DNA of 46,387 nucleotides from Dysgonamonadaceae bacterium. Its GTDB lineage: Bacteria; Bacteroidota; Bacteroidia; Bacteroidales; Azobacteroidaceae. The stretch is taken from NCBI GenBank assembly GCA_031275735.1, contig JAISOJ010000046.1:1-46387 (forward strand), given 5' to 3'. Shown here piece by piece: positions 2,501 through 37,747 of this stretch. Position 1 is the first letter of the stretch; every line of letters starts with the position of its first letter. Position numbers and translations under genes: made by a program. The notes below the pieces were generated by a model, which saw nothing but the letters and a program-made list of their open reading frames with translations, had not been told where the DNA came from and ran no database searches.

Positions 2501-3085
2501 ATGTTAGACTATATCAAAGGAGAAATTATCGAATTGACTCCTGCTTCAGTTGTCATTGAAGTGGGGGAAATAGGTTATGTTACGCACATTTCGTTGAATA
2601 CCTATTCTTCTCTTACGGGACAGAAAAAAACTAAATTATATGTTTATGAAGCAATTAGGGAAGATGCTCACCAATTGTTCGGATTTTCGGAAAAAAGAGA
2701 ACGAGAGCTTTTCCTCTTACTTATATCTGTTTCAGGGGTAGGTACCAACACCGCACGCATGGTTTTATCCTCTCTCGCTTTTTACGAATTGGAAGGAATC
2801 ATTGCTTCGGGCAATGCCGCTATGTTGAAAACCGTTAAAGGAATCGGAAGCAAGACCGCCGAACGAATCATTATCGATTTGAAAGATAAAATAAAAACCA
2901 ACGCAGGACAACAGACGCAAATTCAGGATACTTCGGTTTCCGAAACTGCCAATGAAGCCATAAGCGCTTTAGTCATGCTTGGATTTAACCAACCGGCTTC
3001 ACAAAAAGTTGTCAACAAAATTACAAAAGAAAATCCAGGATTAACCGTTGAACAACTTATCAAGAATGCATTGAAAATGCTTTAA
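2501..3085 (+). CDS. ruvA: Holliday junction branch migration protein RuvA
   Basis: RuvA binds four-way junctions and loads the RuvB helicase during recombinational repair. The 194-aa protein starts [20 protein letters not shown], the family's N-terminal OB fold. The two helix-hairpin-helix motifs are visible around [15 protein letters not shown] and [20 protein letters not shown]. The C-terminal RuvB-binding domain (about 145-194, [13 protein letters not shown]) follows a linker. Its TAA stop shares one base with the ATG of sprA (TAATG), which indicates translational coupling. RuvB and RuvC are not in the window. Confidence 0.97.
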
Positions 3086-6000
3086 TGAAAAATTGGAATA
3101 AATACATTATTACGGGTTTGAGCTTGTCTGCTTTTGCAGGAGGACTTACTTCCATGAATGTCGATTTAACCGGCGGCGGAAAATCCTTCGAGACAACGTT
3201 AATACAAGAACAAACGCAAGATGTTATTTCTCCGACTGTCAGAGATACCTCTCCTCCCCTATTCCCTGTTTCGCCCATCGTACCGGAAAAATACGAAGAC
3301 ATAACTACCACTTACCCGGTTGACTTGCGAAATCCGGAAAATTTTAATAATGGATTTGAGTATAACCCTTTAACTAATCGCTATGAATTAAAATCGACCA
3401 TTGGAGGAAGCAATATTACTACTCCCATCAGCCTTACAAGGGACGAATATATCCGATACTCCCTTCAACAAAGCATGAATTCCTATTTCAAGTCCCGGCA
3501 GCAAGAAGAAGTTTCGGAAGAAGGCGGAAAACCTAAAGACGCTTTATCTGCATTTGATTTCAATTTTGATTTAGGTCCTGCCGAAAAAATATTCGGACCG
3601 GGCGGCGTGCGGTTACAAGCCCAGGGCGGCGTTACCCTGAAAGCTGCCATCGACCGGACAGTTACAGGTAATCCTACTTTAACGGAAAGGCAACGGAATC
3701 GAACGTCCTTTAATTTCGACATGCAGATACAGGCTAACATAACGGCTTCAGTAGGAGATAAAATTAATTTCGATCTGAATTACAATACCGAATCCACTTT
3801 TGATTTCGATACAAAAAAAATAAATTTAGCTTACACCGGCAAAGAAGACGAAATTATTAAAACATTAGAAGCCGGAAATGTAAGCATGAATACAACTAAT
3901 TCGTTAATACGAGGAGGATCGGCGCTTTTCGGTATTAAAACCGAACTACAATTCGGCAAATTGACCGTCGGCGCTATTTTTTCCCAACAAGAATCGCAAT
4001 CCCGTTCCATATCGTCCAAAGGGAATGTACAAATGACCCCTTTTGAACTAAGCGTAGATAATTACGAAGAAAATATGCACTTTCTTGTCGGACATTATTT
4101 CTATGATACTTATGATAAAGCATTAAGTAAATTACCTTATATTAAATCAGGTATAAAAATTAATCGTATCGAAGTGTGGATAACCAACAAAAGGGGTAAT
4201 TACAACGAAGCAAGAAATATTGTGGCATTTGCCGATTTAGGCGAATATAATGTGATAGGTAACAAAGATTTCGTTATTCCTACCGCAGGGAGAGATAGTT
4301 TACCCGATAATCAAGCTAATAATCTCTACTCTAAACTTATTTCCGAATATGTGGGCGCACGTGATATCAGCCGGGTAAATCAAGTTTTCGAAAGTACCAG
4401 TATGGAAGGCGGCAGGGATTATGAAAAAATCGAAAATGCGAAAAAATTAGATACTAACGAATATTTTTTCAACGATTTGCTTGGCTATATCAGCCTTCGT
4501 GCACCCTTACAATCAGACGAAGTATTAGCTGTAGCTTATGAATACACCTATAAAAATCAAGTCTATCGCGTAGGAGAATTTTCGGACAACCCTGAAAATG
4601 CAACGGGCAATTTGTTTTTAAAATTATTAAAAGGAACAAGTATTTCTCCTTCTTCCATCACTTGGAATTTGATGATGAAAAATATTTACAACATCAGTAA
4701 CGGGCGGAATATCGAAAAAGACAAATTCCGTATGGATATTATGTATCAAAACGACTCCGCCGGTATTTACCTAAACTACCTCACCGAAGGAAATATTGCC
4801 AATCAACCGTTGCTCAAGGTCGAAAATTTAGATCGTTTGGATTCGAGAGAAGAACCATACTCAGACGGCTTTTTCGACTATGTCGAAAACTACACGGTTA
4901 AATCTCAAATGGGAAGAATCATTTTTCCCGTAATGGAGCCTTTCGGCAAGCACTTACGAACAGTAATCGGCGTGGATTCTATTGCAGAGAAATATGTTTA
5001 CCAAGAATTGTACGATACAACATTGACAATTGCCCGACAAACTGCCGAAAAGAATAAATTCATCCTTAAGGGGGAATATAAAGGTTCGGCAAACTCCGAC
5101 ATCGACCTGGGTGGATTCAATATTGCTAAAGGTTCGGTTAGAGTTTCCGCCAACGGCGTCCTTCTGAAAGAAAACGAAGATTATATCGTCGATTATTATA
5201 CCGGAAAGATTACGGTTATCAATCCTGTTTATGAAAATGCTAAGATAGACGTTTCTTCCGAAAACCAATCTACTTTTGGAATGCAGCGAAAAACCATGAT
5301 GGGAATTAACCTGAATTATGCATTTTCCCCCCAATTTAATTTGGGAGCTACCATCATGAATTTGAGCGAGATGCCAATGACTTTGAAAACCACGCCGGGA
5401 GAAGAATCCATCAACAATACTTTATTTGGTTTTAATACCAATTATTCTACTAACTCGTATTTATTAACTAATATCCTAGATAAATTGCCTTTTGTCGAAC
5501 TAACGGCTCCTTCCCAAATTACATTTACCGCAGAATATGCTCAACTCATTGCCGGGCATTACCGGAGCAAATACGGAGGAGATTATTCGTATATCGATGA
5601 TTTCGAAAGCGCAAAAATGACTTCAGACTTGCGTTCGTACTATGGGTGGAATTTATCGTCAACGCCTTCTACTTTCCCCCATTCGCATTCGGTAAACGAT
5701 ATCGATTATGGAAAAGACCGTGCTTTATTAGCTTGGTATTACGTTGAGAGTCTGTTCACCAGGAAATCTTCATTAACTCCCTACCATATCAAAAATGATT
5801 TAAACCAATTGTCCAACCATTATGTAAGAGAAATTTTGGAAGATGAATTATTTCCGAACAAAGATCAACGTTATAATGAATCGGCAACTATCCCTGTACT
5901 GAATTTAGCTTTTTATCCCAAAGAAAGAGGTCCTTATAATTTAGACGCTTCGGGAATGAATACGGATGGAACACTAACAGAACCTCAAAAACGTTGGGGA

Positions 6001-9000
6001 GGCATTTTCAGGAAAATAGATAATGGGATGACTGATTTCGAAGCAAATAATATCGAACATATTGAATTTTGGTTAATGGACCCTTTTATCTATGAACAAG
6101 ATTCGCCGGGGGGAGATCTCTATTTTGATTTAGGTGAAATATCGGAAGATATATTGAAGGATGAAAAAAAATTTTTTGAGAATGGTTTACCTACCGACGG
6201 CGATCAGTCTAAGGTAGAGCAAACGAATTGGGGCGTAGTCCCTAAACAACAATCCATGGTTTATGCTTTCGACGTTAACAATCGTAAATCACAAGATGTA
6301 GGATTTGATGGACTGAGCGACGAGCAAGAATTTCTTCACCCTTCTTATGCCGCTTATGTAAAAGAGTTACGTAGCCGTTTGGATCCAGCCACTATTCAAA
6401 GGATGGAAAATGATCCTTTTTCACCATTACGAGATCCGGCCGGAGATAATTATCATTATTTCCGAGGTTCGGATTACGATGAAAAAGAGATGCCTGTTCT
6501 GGGTCGCTACAAACGATATAACGGAACTGAAGGAAATTCTGTCGACGCTAACGATTCTCCCGAAAACTACAATACGGCAGCTCAGGTAAATCCTGACGTC
6601 GAGGATATCAATCAAGATAATACCTTGAATGAAAACGAAAAATATTTCCGGTATAAAGTTTCCATTCGTCCGAAAGATTTGGTAGTTAGAGAAAATAGTT
6701 ATATTGTAGATAAAAGGGAAACATCTACTCTCCTGAAAAATAACAAACGGGAATCAGTCAACTGGTATTTGTTTAAAATTCCTATCAATGAATTTAGCGA
6801 TCAAATTGGAGATATAAGAGACTTTAAAACTATTCGTTTCGTTCGAATGGTTTTGACCAACTTTGCCGATTCCATCATTCTTCGTTTTGGTACATTGGAA
6901 TTGGTTAGGGGTGCTTGGCGAGTTTATATCAAAGACTTATCCAATCCTAATCTTCCCCCCTCGTCCGACGCGAACACAAGCACAAGTCTTTCTACTGTTA
7001 ATATTGAAGAAAATGGGGATAAAGAACCTGTCAATTATATTATGCCTCCTAATGTAAACCGAATGATTGATCCCGGTCAGCCTCAGCTTCGCATGGAAAA
7101 CGAACAATCGTTGGCGATGCATATCTCAAAACTATCGCCCGGCGATGCAAGAGCTATTTACAAAAGCACAGCGCTGGACGCGAGGCAATACCGGCGCTTG
7201 CAAATGTTTGTCCATGCCGAAAAAACGACAGAAGACATCAATAATTTACAAGACAATGAATTATCTGTTTTTCTACGCTTAGGATCGGACTATAAACATA
7301 ATTATTATGAATACGAAATTCCGTTGAAACTTACTCCTCCAGGGACATATTCCCAAGGAATTAACGCCGACAGGGAAATCGTGTGGCCGACGTCCAATAT
7401 GTTTGACTTCCCATTTGAATATTTGACCAATCTTAAATTGAACCGGAACAAGGAAAAACGAAAGGAAAATTCGGAAGTAACTTTTCTCACGCCTTATTCG
7501 GAATACGATCCGGATAAACCCATGAATAAGATGACCATAGTGGGAAATCCAACTATTTCTGAAATGAAAATAATTATGATTGGAGTCAGGAACAATTCCA
7601 AAGGTTACAAATCGGCCGAAGTCTGGTTCGACGAACTGCGTTTAACCGAATTCAACGAAGATGGCGGTTGGGCCGGAAACGCCAATCTTTTCGTAGGTCT
7701 TTCCGATTTAGGCTCCGTTAACTTCGTCGGCAGGAAAGAAACTGCCGGTTTTGGGGGTATTGATCAGGGTATTATGGAGCGTAATCTCGACGACAAACAA
7801 TTTTTCAGCATAGCTACTCAAATAGAATTCGGTAAGTTTTTCCCCGAAAAGGCGAAAGTAAACCTGCCTGTGTATTTTTCGTACAGCGAAGATATCGTTA
7901 GTCCCAAATACAACCCCTTAGACCAAGATGTTTTACTAAAAGACGCATTAGACGCGGCAGGAAGTAAGGAAGAAAGAGATTCTATCAAAAGTTTCGCCGT
8001 GGATAAAATAACAAGCCAATCGTTGGATATTAACAATGTGCGGGTCAATATAAACAGTAAAAATCCTATGCCCTACGATCCGGCAAATTTCTCATTCGGA
8101 TATTCTACCTCCCAAATACTCACTCAAAAACCTACGGTAGAATATGAAAAACAAACCGAAACTCGGTTCGTATTTACTTATGCTTATTCTCCAATGTTTA
8201 AACTGTGGCAACCTTTTAATAAAGAAAGTAATAACGATTCATCAAACCGCAACGCCTCTAATAAATCTTCATCCAGAAATAGCCAATCAACGAGGAATCA
8301 ATCGAGAGGGAATAATTTCTTTAAAGATATTGGAATCGGTTATCTTCCCAAAAGCATTGCTTTTTCTTCGGACATTCATCGCGACTATTTCGAATTGCAA
8401 CTCAGGGATATACAAAGTGCGGGAACAAACAAAATGCCGGCTTCTTTCCGAGAAGATTTTTTCTGGAACAGGGACTTTTCGCTTCAATGGGACTTGACCA
8501 AAAACCTGAAACTAAATCTTGTCACAGGAACGGAAGCGCGGATTGACGCGCCTCATGTTCAAGCAAATAAAAAATTCAATTACAACGAATACCAACTATG
8601 GAAAGATGCGGTTTGGCAAAGTATCCTGAATTGGGGAAGTCCGATGCATTATAATCAAAATTTTTCAGCAATCTATACCGCCCCGTTCCAAAACATACCG
8701 ATTCTTAATTTCATAAACGCAGGGTTGTCTTACACGACTACCTATACCTGGGATAGAGGAGCAAGTCTCGAAGATGAAGAAGGTATTGAAATAGGTAACA
8801 CAATTAAAAATTCGCGAACTTTGGGCTTGGATAATGCGACAATTAATCTAATGTCTTTTTATGGTAAAAGTAAATTCTTAGACGAGGCCAATAAAAAGTT
8901 CACTTTGAATAAATCGACAAATACTCGAAACAATGCCCGGAGAGACGAGGCAAATAATAATCGGAAAACGGCGGAAAAAGAAAAAAGAAAAAAGAAATAC

Positions 9001-10593
9001 GAAGGGGAAGTTCAACTCAACACAGACTCATCTACCATTGTCCGACATTCTTTAGACAATAAGCGCATAAGAGTGACGGCGAGAAGAGATAACGGCAGAT
9101 TGTATGAGGTTAAGTATAAAAAATTGGATAATAATTCAATAGAAATTAAAAATAAAGATACCGTACAACTCAAATTGGCGATTACTCAATTACCGCCTTT
9201 GGAAGATGAAACTTGGTACAAGATAGCGCAAGTAGCCGCTCGCGGGCTAATGATGGTGCGAACAATCGGATTTAGCTACAATGAAACGACAGGATTAATG
9301 ATTCCCGGATTCCGTCCGGAAATCGGGGATTTTTTCGGGCAAAACAGTTCGTCATTCGGCTATACGCCCGGACTTGATTTTGCTTTTGGATTTATCGATG
9401 AAAGTTATTTGGAAAAAGCAAACAGGAACAACTGGTTGGTAAAAAACGAAGACAACATTATTCCCGCCATGTTTGACCGAACAGAAACATTCAATTTTAC
9501 CGCTTTACTGGAGCCATTCGCAGGCATGAAAATCAATCTTTCAGCCATGCAAACCAAATCGCACAGAAACGATATCTATTTCATGTACGATAATCCGGCG
9601 CCAAGATTTACCGGAAGTTTTAATATGACAACAATCGCGCTTCAATCTATTTTTGAAAAAGCCGACGCGGCCAATGGTTATTATTCTAAAACATTTAATA
9701 CTTTCTTAAAAAACAGGGGAATCATTGCCGAACGTTTGAAAAAACGCTACGCAAATATTACCGATCCAAATGCCGGATTCCATCTGAACTCCATAGACGT
9801 TCTTATTCCGGCATTCTTTTCCGCCTATACCGGAAAAGACCCGAATAATACGAGCCTCGCCTTTTTCCCCGCTTTGAAAAGTTTATTACCGAACTGGAAA
9901 ATAACTTATGAAGGATTTATACAACTCTCCTTTATCAATAAACATTTCAAATCCTTTATTTTAGAACATGAATATAAATGCCGGTATTTGATAGGTTCTT
10001 ACACCTCTATTCTTGATTGGGAAGAAATAAATGATGGAATCGGCTTCATCAGAAGCCAGACCTCTGATCTGCCTTTCCTTTCTTCACCTTATAGCATTAC
10101 TGCAGTGAACATTACAGAGGGTTTCGATCCCCTTATCCGACTTAATTCTACGTTTGTTAACAACATGAGCTTGAAGATGGATTATAGAACTTTGCGTAAT
10201 ATTAACCTGAATGTTTCCGCTTACCAAATTGTAGAACGAATCAGTAATGAATTCGGAATAGATATTGGTTACCGTTTCGAAAACTTCAATAAAGTACTCA
10301 AATTACCGAAAACCGGAGGAGAAAGTTTCAACAATGAATTCCGCCTTTCTGCCGGAGTCGCTTACCGCATATCGCAAGACTTGATTCGGAAAATTCAAGA
10401 TGCATTCACCCAATCTACACAGGGAGATTCCCAAACGACAATTAAGATAACCGGCGATTACAATATGAGCCGGCTGGTTACTTTTCAAGCTTTTTATGAC
10501 AGGCAAATCAGTAAACCTTTAGTTTCGTCGACGGCTTATCCTTTATCTAAGTCAAGTTTTGGTATCAGCTTAAAAATTAGTTTATCAAGATAA
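3085..10593 (+). CDS. sprA: Type IX secretion outer-membrane translocon SprA/Sov
   Basis: SprA forms the giant outer-membrane beta-barrel pore of the T9SS, through which proteins with a C-terminal sorting domain leave the cell. The length, 2502 aa, matches the family (P. gingivalis Sov and F. johnsoniae SprA are about 2400-2500 aa). The N-terminus has a hydrophobic export segment (residues 8-24). The early region (about 160-330) carries the SprA N-terminal beta pattern with [16 protein letters not shown]. The protein is rich in alternating Tyr/Asn beta strands and ends ...[10 protein letters not shown]. Two low-complexity polar stretches interrupt the barrel: Asn/Ser/Arg-rich at about 1711-1746 and Arg/Lys/Asn-rich at about 1935-1973. 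The gene overlaps ruvA by one base and is followed 8 nt later by a DedA gene. The GH43 protein at 37748 is a likely cargo. Confidence 0.95.
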
Positions 10594-20020: not shown

Positions 20021-20067
20021 TGTGCAATAAATTTTATCCGCTTATAGATAATCTGATTTATTTCATG

Positions 20068-20075
20068 TAAATTTG
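20068..20075 (+). promoter_or_regulatory. -7 element for the GH3/beta-lactamase gene
   Basis: TAAATTTG fits TAnnTTTG. The longest frame would start at a TTG inside this element, so the ATG at 20103 is the true start, with a leader of about 20 nt. Confidence 0.6.
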
Positions 20076-20102
20076 CCCGATTATATACTTTACCTGTCGA
20101 TA

Positions 20103-34825: not shown

Positions 34826-34897
34826 CGTTTCTCCTATTCTTTTCTTAACCACAAACTTGTTTTTTATCCGTCTGTATATAATGTCAGGGAATTTATG

Positions 34898-34905
34898 TAT
34901 TTTTG
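34898..34905 (+). promoter_or_regulatory. -7 element for the GH67-like gene
   Basis: TATTTTTG fits TAnnTTTG. It overlaps the first ATG of the longer frame (34903), so translation starts at the downstream ATG 34933, giving a leader of about 20 nt. Confidence 0.6.
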
Positions 34906-34932
34906 CACAATCAAATATTTATAAAAAATACC

Positions 34933-37539
34933 ATGAAAATTACTGACCAGATACGCGTTTTATCTCTTTTATTTATATTATTAGTAGTAACCGGAGCCGG
35001 TAAATCGGATCCGGAAATATCCATTATTACAGATAATTCTATGGAACAAACAGCTATGCATGGTTTGAAAAAACTAATGGAAGCACTTGACATGAAGCAT
35101 ATTTCCTATGAGAAAGTAATATCCGGATCCGAGGTTCATGGCCGGATTGTGTTAGTTGCAGGAAAGACACAAGGAAATGGATTGGCCGCTCGACTCTTAG
35201 GAAAGGGAAATTACGACATACCCCAAGTAACCGAAGCCTTGATAATCCGGAAGACTCATTTCGGAGGAAAGCCAATGCTCGTTATCGGTGGATATGACAA
35301 TAGAGGATTAATGTATGGCTTACTAGATGTTGCTAACCGGATTAGTTGGAGTGACGACCAATCAAATCCTCTGCAATATGTAAGAGAAACTACCTCTGTT
35401 CCAAATATAAAAGAACGGGGACTTGCTATGTACACAATGAATCGGGCCTATTGGGAAAGCCGTTTTTACGACAAACACTTTTGGACGCAATACCTTGATA
35501 TGATGGCGCAAAACAGATTCAACATGTTGGAAATCCTGTTTGGTTATGAAAACGGCGGTTTTATGGCGCCCTGTTATCCTTATTTTTTCCATGTAGAAGG
35601 CTTTCCCGAAGTAAAAATGGCGGATATAACTGTCGAACAGCAGCAGTTGAATGTAGCAACTATGAATCAGGTGATCGAAATGGCGCATGGTCGAGGCATC
35701 AATATACGTTTGGGAATATGGGATCATATATACCGGGGCGGCGTACAAGCAGGCGGAAATCCCGATTTCGAATATAGCGAAGGGAAACCTCTGCCTTGGC
35801 AGATAACCGGACTTGATTCCACCAACTTGAATCGCTACACCCAAGCGGCATTTGCCAAATTTTTGAAAACATTTCCTAATCTTGACGCTATTTTATTCAA
35901 AACAAATAACGAATCCGGGTTGAAAGAAAATGAATTACATGAATTCAGCTTGAACTTTTTTGAAACAGTAAAAGAAAATGCTCCAAACATGATGATCGAT
36001 ATTCATTCCAAAGGAATTACCGACACATTAATCCGAAGCGCTATTCAATTAGGAATAAAATTCCGGATTGCGCCTAAATTCTGGATGGAACAAATGGGGA
36101 TGCCATTTAGTCCCACTCATATTAATAGGGAAGATCAAAAGAACAGGAGGCACGGTTATGCAAACATGTTACGTTATCCACAACATTACCAGATGCTTTG
36201 GAAACTCTGGAATGGCGGCACTAACCGAGCGTTTTTGTGGGGTAGTCCGGAATATGTAAAACGGTTTGTAGAAAGTTGTCATCTTTATAACAGCGAAGCT
36301 TACGCCGTTTATGAACCGTTGGCCACTAAAATGGAATCACAAATGCATGATGCAAAGCCATTTCAATTACTCGATTCTCCATATCAATATTATAACTACG
36401 AGTTTGAACGTTATTGGTATTTCTTCCAGACATTCGGCTTAATCGGATACGACCCTTATACGCCTGATGATATTTGGAACAAAGAATTTGAAAAACGGTT
36501 TGGAAAAACAGCAGGAGTTATTATAAAACAAGCATTGGACGAAGCTAGTTGGATTTTGCCCCGGATCGTTGCATCTTGTTATCCTTACAGTTTTTTCCCG
36601 ACAACAAGCGCATGGCCGGAAAAACAACGCTTAGGCGACTTGCCCTTGTACGCCAAAGCTGAGGGAAGCGATTTGCAGCAATTCGCAAGCTTTGATGAAG
36701 AAGCTCAAGTTCTGTTGGGAACCCTTGAAACAGCCAAAACGTTACCATCAACAACCAGTTTGTGGTTAACAAAACGATCGGAAGACGTAAAGAAAAAAAT
36801 TGAGGCAGCGGAAAAAATTATAGACTCAACAAGCAATAAAGAATTTTATTCGACCATAACCGATTTAAAAATGTTATCAAACCTGGCTCTTTTCCATGCG
36901 CGAAGAATTCCGGCTGCTATTAGTTACTGCCTTTTTTTGCGTACCAAAGATATCACAGCGTTGGACGAAGCCATTATTCACGAACAAAACGCAACGGAGG
37001 CCTGGAAACAATTAGTGGACGCCGCAGGTAATGTATATGCGAAAAATATACTTATCGGAAAAAAATCACTTTCCGGACATTGGAAAGATGAATGGGTACT
37101 TCTTAACAAAGGATTGGAAAAATTGAAAGAGCAACGCATATATTTCACTCCCGACAAACCGGTTAAAACATCACCTCGCTATATATGCGCTACAGATACG
37201 GACAATAGCCGATATTTTACCGTCGTTCACACGCCGATAGATACGGTAGAAATAGGCCAACCGATTGTCATTAAGGCTAATATTGATGCTCCTGCAGGAG
37301 TGAAATGGGTACGCCTGCTATACAGGGCTGTCAACCAATACAAAGATTTTGAAATGCTTCCCATGATAACTACCGATGGTAAAACGCATACGTTTCAAAC
37401 GACAATTCGTGCAGAACAAATTGATCCTCAATATGATTTAATGTATTTGATTGAAATGATGGATAGAAATAACAAAGGGTTTATCTATCCCAATTTCAAC
37501 AAAGAAACACCCTACAAGATTATCAATTTGAAACGATAG
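34933..37539 (+). CDS. Secreted glycoside hydrolase-like protein (GH20/67-type N-domain)
   Basis: The 868-aa protein has a signal peptide (about 1-24). The next 100 residues resemble the N-terminal alpha/beta domain shared by GH20 hexosaminidases and GH67 glucuronidases (GRIVLVAGKTQGNG, LVIGGYDNRGLMYGLLDVAN). A TIM-barrel-like region follows (about 135-430) with LDMMAQNRFNMLEILFG and a possible acid at E327 in FKTNNESG. The C-terminal part (about 560-868) is helical and then beta-rich. I cannot assign a GH family or substrate. The protein lacks a T9SS sorting domain, unlike its neighbour GH43, so it probably stays periplasmic or on the outer membrane. The start is set by the promoter at 34898-34905. 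Confidence 0.7.
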   Translation: MKITDQIRVLSLLFILLVVTGAGKSDPEISIITDNSMEQTAMHGLKKLMEALDMKHISYEKVISGSEVHGRIVLVAGKTQGNGLAARLLGKGNYDIPQVTEALIIRKTHFGGKPMLVIGGYDNRGLMYGLLDVANRISWSDDQSNPLQYVRETTSVPNIKERGLAMYTMNRAYWESRFYDKHFWTQYLDMMAQNRFNMLEILFGYENGGFMAPCYPYFFHVEGFPEVKMADITVEQQQLNVATMNQVIEMAHGRGINIRLGIWDHIYRGGVQAGGNPDFEYSEGKPLPWQITGLDSTNLNRYTQAAFAKFLKTFPNLDAILFKTNNESGLKENELHEFSLNFFETVKENAPNMMIDIHSKGITDTLIRSAIQLGIKFRIAPKFWMEQMGMPFSPTHINREDQKNRRHGYANMLRYPQHYQMLWKLWNGGTNRAFLWGSPEYVKRFVESCHLYNSEAYAVYEPLATKMESQMHDAKPFQLLDSPYQYYNYEFERYWYFFQTFGLIGYDPYTPDDIWNKEFEKRFGKTAGVIIKQALDEASWILPRIVASCYPYSFFPTTSAWPEKQRLGDLPLYAKAEGSDLQQFASFDEEAQVLLGTLETAKTLPSTTSLWLTKRSEDVKKKIEAAEKIIDSTSNKEFYSTITDLKMLSNLALFHARRIPAAISYCLFLRTKDITALDEAIIHEQNATEAWKQLVDAAGNVYAKNILIGKKSLSGHWKDEWVLLNKGLEKLKEQRIYFTPDKPVKTSPRYICATDTDNSRYFTVVHTPIDTVEIGQPIVIKANIDAPAGVKWVRLLYRAVNQYKDFEMLPMITTDGKTHTFQTTIRAEQIDPQYDLMYLIEMMDRNNKGFIYPNFNKETPYKIINLKR

Positions 37540-37579: not shown

Positions 37580-37605
37580 AGCAGCCCTAAATTGCTGTTC
37601 TTTTT
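37580..37605 (+). terminator. Weak intrinsic terminator
   Basis: AGCAGC (37580-37585) pairs with GCTGTT (37594-37599, one G-T pair) across an 8-nt loop, followed by C and five Ts. Confidence 0.55.
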
Positions 37606-37611
37606 ATTCGC

Positions 37612-37644
37612 TTGTGTATAATGCCGGAAGTTTTTGTACATTTG
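37612..37644 (+). promoter_or_regulatory. Promoter before the tRNA-like element and GH43 gene
   Basis: TTG (37612-37614), a 22-nt spacer and a perfect TACATTTG (37637-37644). Transcription would start near 37651, 14 nt before the tRNA-like sequence and about 97 nt before the GH43 start codon. Confidence 0.65.
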
Positions 37645-37664
37645 CAGTTAAATCACCAGGTAAA

Positions 37665-37738
37665 GGCCCATTCGTCTATCAGCTAGGACGCAAGATTCTC
37701 ATTCTTGAAATGAAGAGCTTGATTCTCCTATGGGCACC
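37665..37738 (+). tRNA. tRNA-Glu(CTC)-like element, probably degenerate
   Basis: The 74 nt fold as a tRNA. Acceptor GGCCCAT faces ATGGGC, the D stem GTCT/GGAC and anticodon stem CAAGA/TCTTG are intact. The loop TTCTCAT has anticodon CTC (Glu), and the TTCGTCTA start of the D arm is diagnostic of tRNA-Glu. The T arm is faulty: one A-C mismatch in its stem, and the loop reads CTTGATT instead of TTCGATT (T54C, C56T). G18 of the D loop is A, and the 3' end lacks the base that should pair with G1. It is therefore a decayed tRNA, a divergent tRNA or a tRNA-shaped leader. It ends 9 nt before the GH43 start codon and shares that gene's promoter. Confidence 0.65.
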
Positions 37739-37747
37739 TTCAAATAA

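Follow-up and report, generated by a model that had tools for sequence, protein, structure and literature searches.

A decayed tRNA-Glu(CTC) gene as a probable passive part of the GH43 leader in a termite-gut Dysgonamonadaceae bacterium

A tRNA-shaped sequence that directly precedes a GH43 gene in a Dysgonamonadaceae bacterium is very probably a decayed, non-functional copy of a dispensable second Glu tRNA gene, which would now form a passive part of the GH43 leader. The source organism belongs to the termite-gut Bacteroidales (assembly GCA_031275735.1), and the window that we analysed is the whole of contig JAISOJ010000046.1, namely 46,387 bases of a 2.43-Mb draft genome (a MAG that is 76% complete). 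The features of the locus are listed in Table 1. The GH43 protein carries the Pfam domains Glyco_hydro_43 and F5/8 type C and a Por secretion (T9SS) C-terminal tail, and it is predicted to be a secreted sugar-cutting enzyme. The same contig also encodes the T9SS translocon protein SprA (2502 aa, window 3085-10593). The element itself is preceded by an 878-aa gene, a relative of which was found in 1 of 60 genomes.

Table 1. Features of the GH43 leader region (window coordinates).
Feature	Position	Strand	Basis
Terminator-like hairpin with a T run behind it, downstream of the 878-aa gene	37580..37599	+	consensus scan; prediction
Bacteroidetes-type promoter (TTG at 37612; -7 box TACATTTGC at 37637-37645)	37612..37645	+	same-genome copies, consensus
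tRNA-Glu(CTC) pseudogene, 74 nt	37665..37738	+	covariance model, Rfam RF00005, alignments; ARAGORN negative
Spacer of 9 nt (TTCAAATAA) between the pseudogene and the GH43 ATG	37739..37747	+	sequence
GH43 gene, intact, 815 aa	37748..40195	+	Pfam, translation

An initial annotation had placed a tRNA-Glu(CTC)-like sequence 9 nt before the GH43 ATG. This was confirmed with a covariance model made from 18 intact tRNA-Glu genes of relatives, to which the element could be aligned over its whole length with a score of 73.7 bits (E 1.1e-19). In a permissive scan of a short region with Rfam RF00005, positions 37665-37737 scored 29.9 bits (E 2e-4), the gathering score of this family being 29. The element was not found in a gathering scan of the whole window with fast filters, and ARAGORN called no tRNA in the window. 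Sequence identity to intact genes reached 92-93%, with E values from 1e-23 to 1e-15. Judged by these matches, the element is homologous to tRNA-Glu(CTC), far beyond chance. It is set apart from intact genes by its score. On the same model, the intact tRNA-Glu genes of the genus (n=42) scored 95.1-106.3 bits and those in the loci tested 101-107 bits, so that even the lowest-scoring intact tRNA-Glu gene of the genus exceeds the element by more than 21 bits. Its score is isolated between those of the intact genes and a second, lower cluster (57-65 bits), the members of which are tRNA-Arg where annotated.

Alignment with CTC genes of the same genus revealed seven differences between the element and the nearest intact CTC gene (L030). 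One of these, T20C, is also seen in intact genes. The remaining six (G18A, an extra T in the variable loop, G50A, T54C, C56T and the loss of T72) either fall at positions that do not vary among intact CTC genes or disrupt a stem pair, and we therefore regard the element as a pseudogene and not as a working tRNA. G18, T54 and C56 are invariant in the 18 aligned intact genes and all three are replaced in the element; these are the residues at which it fails among those assessed for the elbow (G18, G19, T54, T55, C56 and A58). The elbow, which is formed by G18, C56 and the T-loop motif, is recognised by RNase P, RNase Z, the ribosome and many enzymes (PMC4810234). Moreover, pairing is lost at 1:72 and at 50:64, the latter being an A50.C64 mismatch. 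The element has no complete cloverleaf, as it possesses neither the full 7-bp acceptor stem, of which six pairs are kept, nor the full 5-bp T stem. No pair is broken in the D and anticodon stems, and the anticodon loop and stem are identical to those of intact CTC genes.

The initial annotation had described the acceptor, D and anticodon stems as intact, which is true of the D and anticodon stems but not of the acceptor stem, where the deletion has removed pair 1:72. The reported loss of T54 and C56 from the T loop was borne out by the alignment, as was the shortening of the 3' end by one base. The mismatch in the T stem, the additional nucleotide of the variable loop and the replacement of G18 in the D loop are further defects that it had not mentioned. 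In folding energy, the cloverleaf of the element (-14.5 kcal/mol) falls short of its own best fold (-20.6 kcal/mol) by about 6 kcal/mol, whereas the two values are close for an intact CTC gene (-23.1 and -24.5 kcal/mol). It should be noted that the unbroken anticodon and D stems, together with an identity of about 90%, count against simple decay in that the decay must be recent or some structure must have been kept. However, as there are only seven changes in all, the unchanged stems are too weak a basis on which to claim selection.

The tRNA-Glu(CTC) gene is a dispensable, relocating spare gene in this termite-gut genus. The dispensability follows from the finding that the bacterium's own genome contains an intact tRNA-Glu(TTC) gene (G000:C24), and that G003 and G023, two genomes of the genus that are close to complete (99%, 5-7 contigs), each carry a single tRNA-Glu gene, which is TTC. 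An intact TTC tRNA can read GAG by wobble, and only 12% of the Glu codons of the window are GAG. As the MAG is 76% complete, it may lack a further intact CTC copy. Of the 40 other genomes of the genus, at least 8 (G010, G013, G019, G026, G029, G031, G036 and G039) possess an intact CTC gene, which occupies several different neighbourhoods with unrelated downstream genes. It directly follows gltX, whose product belongs to the synthetase family that serves this tRNA, in G026, G039 and G019 (gltX being identified by Pfam in G026 and by resemblance in G039 and G019), and it has moved in the others. No CTC gene adjoins the gltX match of the bacterium's own genome (42% identical). In G010 the CTC gene lies beside another tRNA, and in G013 it lies near a gene pair that is also found at 16.6-19.6 kb in the window, where no tRNA remnant was detected. 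The layout in G036 (L217, G036:C51, 765-837) is as in the window, with an intact, diverged CTC gene that ends 16 nt before the ATG (854) of a DUF2461 gene, but there the tRNA is a working one. The view that the element is a dead tRNA is well supported. Relatives contain canonical tRNA genes of this kind in front of unrelated genes, which is the outcome that the initial annotation had named as refuting its reading. As a separate observation, two tRNA-Glu(TTC) genes with a repeated spacer are arranged in tandem at about 660-828 of L218 (G058:C351), the second being cut by the contig end.

We also considered how the element would be transcribed. A consensus scan found one terminator-like hairpin upstream, compared with 0.2 expected in shuffles, and the -7 box of the promoter can be compared with TAnnTTTG, the -7 consensus of the Bacteroidetes-type promoter (PMC7366714). 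The 9-nt gap between the element and the ATG leaves no room for a second promoter. Together, the hairpin, the promoter and the short gap suggest that the element would be transcribed as the GH43 leader. Transcription would then start just after the box at 37637-37645, cross the element and enter GH43, and the element would be a roughly 75-nt passive portion of the 5' leader that takes no part in translation as a tRNA. This arrangement may have arisen either when a tRNA copy landed between the ATG and a GH43 promoter that was already there, or when GH43 arrived behind a tRNA transcription unit.

A 46-nt stretch around the promoter recurs in the genome before unrelated genes. These are GNAT-like, ABC-permease-like and sigma-like genes (labels that rest on inspection by eye instead of a domain search), the neighbouring gene at 34933 and, in a weaker form, a GH3 gene at 20073. 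The closest copies precede protein genes, including the neighbour at 34933, and the tRNA-Met gene of this genome has a weaker copy in front of it. Over the 8 nt that follow TTTGC, 17 tRNA promoters of the genome have 2-6 G/C (mean 3.9), the protein-gene members of the promoter family 0-3 and the GH43 promoter 1. If the element were taken out, about 29 nt of leader would be left, which is comparable to the leaders of the promoter relatives. The earlier idea that the promoter was captured from a tRNA gene may hold in so far as a tRNA could use it, a related copy being located at tRNA-Met, but it is weakened by the A+T-rich discriminator, which is unlike those at the tRNA genes of this genome, and by the closest copies being at protein genes. 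These last two properties lean, suggestively only, towards a tRNA copy having been put into an existing GH43 leader, and such an insertion fits at least as well as a captured tRNA promoter. The promoter family as such follows the pattern TTTATCCGTCTGTGTATAATG-N8-TTT-N2-TGTACATTTGC, which is conserved well past the usual -33/-7 boxes. In the window it occurs at 34863-34906, 37602-37645 and 20033-20076 (before the 878-aa gene, which has no Pfam match, in the GH43 leader and before the GH3 gene, respectively), and elsewhere in the genome at four sites (G000:C87:20516, C103:6439, C107:803 and C106:16173). A control search with the reversed pattern gave no match, and the family is possibly one regulon.

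If the element served the GH43 gene, it might be expected at other GH43 loci. GH43 homologues were drawn from 100 relatives and a genome collection, in which the matches were mostly to termite-gut Bacteroidales (Candidatus Symbiothrix, Dysgonamonadaceae and Tannerella). The element was absent from the leaders of about 70 other GH43 loci, some of them shared by the two collections or cut before the start codon, when these were searched with ARAGORN and the tRNA-Glu model, and a search of these leaders for degenerate copies gave an unrelated tRNA-Leu and noise alone. It was likewise absent from the closest full-length homologues (G007 and L165; 66-68% identity). The element is therefore not a conserved feature of GH43 leaders in the relatives examined. 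When the 201-nt leader was searched across the genus, the tRNA-Glu matches ended at or near the tRNA edges, which means that no relative shares the flanks of the element. The arrangement of pseudogene and GH43 gene was thus seen at one locus in one genome, and the absence of selection is not measurable from a single instance.

Several other explanations were weighed. It had been proposed that the tRNA-like structure remains a substrate of RNase P and/or RNase Z, whose cuts would free the 5' end of the GH43 mRNA. A tRNA a few nucleotides before an open reading frame is indeed an ordinary layout in these genomes: besides the CTC-DUF2461 pair of G036, tRNA-Glu(TTC) lies about 30-40 nt before rpsT (recognised by sequence) in these Bacteroidales, in the same order of promoter, tRNA, short gap and open reading frame, probably on one transcript. 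The retained D and anticodon arms and most of the acceptor pairs would also be in line with processing. However, the tRNAs before rpsT are intact and conserved in place, whereas the element is decayed. Processing is very unlikely, as the residues lost are precisely those of the elbow that both enzymes see (PMC4810234), the cloverleaf is not close to the best fold and the other GH43 loci do without the element. Much the same can be said of a tRNA-like RNA kept to control the translation or stability of GH43, for which the position immediately before the ATG and a precedent in Bacillus cereus speak. The tRNA-Other of B. cereus is likewise a tRNA-like sequence that is not expected to act in translation and that is transcribed from either its own promoter or one nearby, and it illustrates that tRNA relics can be put to use, but it sits within a regulatory RNA with deletion phenotypes, whereas the element directly precedes an open reading frame (PMC3399842). 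The element occurs at no other GH43 locus, its fold is only weakly better than that of shuffles (z -1.35), the start region is not clearly sequestered and GH43 has no link to glutamate. We therefore consider a regulatory leader, which had also been proposed initially, to be very unlikely, and equally doubtful is the combined view that the relic, with enough tRNA shape left for a tRNA-processing enzyme to bind or cut it, has been recruited in this species as a leader that sets the level of the secreted GH43 protein. tRNA mimicry or tRNA binding in leaders is known, for example from the leader of the E. coli threonyl-tRNA synthetase gene and from T-box leaders. The element differs from these in being a direct sequence descendant of a tRNA gene, in its lack of conservation and in having no link to an amino-acid or synthetase gene.

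That the element is an unusual yet functional tRNA-Glu(CTC) is barely credible. The exact match of its anticodon loop and stem with intact CTC genes would favour this, but G18, T54, C56 and pair 1:72 are lost, the score lies well below those of all intact tRNA-Glu genes of the genus, ARAGORN was negative and the TTC tRNA could serve GAG codons. The least plausible explanation is that the element represents the att-site scar that a mobile element left after integration into a tRNA-Glu gene. While tRNA genes are often used as integration sites, the window contains no second tRNA 3' end, no integrase was detected among the neighbouring proteins scanned with Pfam, and the full tRNA length is present instead of a 3' fragment.

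The significance of our findings lies mainly in annotation, since an odd tRNA-shaped leader can be explained as a spare tRNA-Glu gene that probably died recently. In addition, they show that tRNA-Glu(CTC) is dispensable and shifts its position in this termite-gut genus. Should the leader be functional after all, it would represent a natural case of a tRNA gene that was turned into an mRNA leader.
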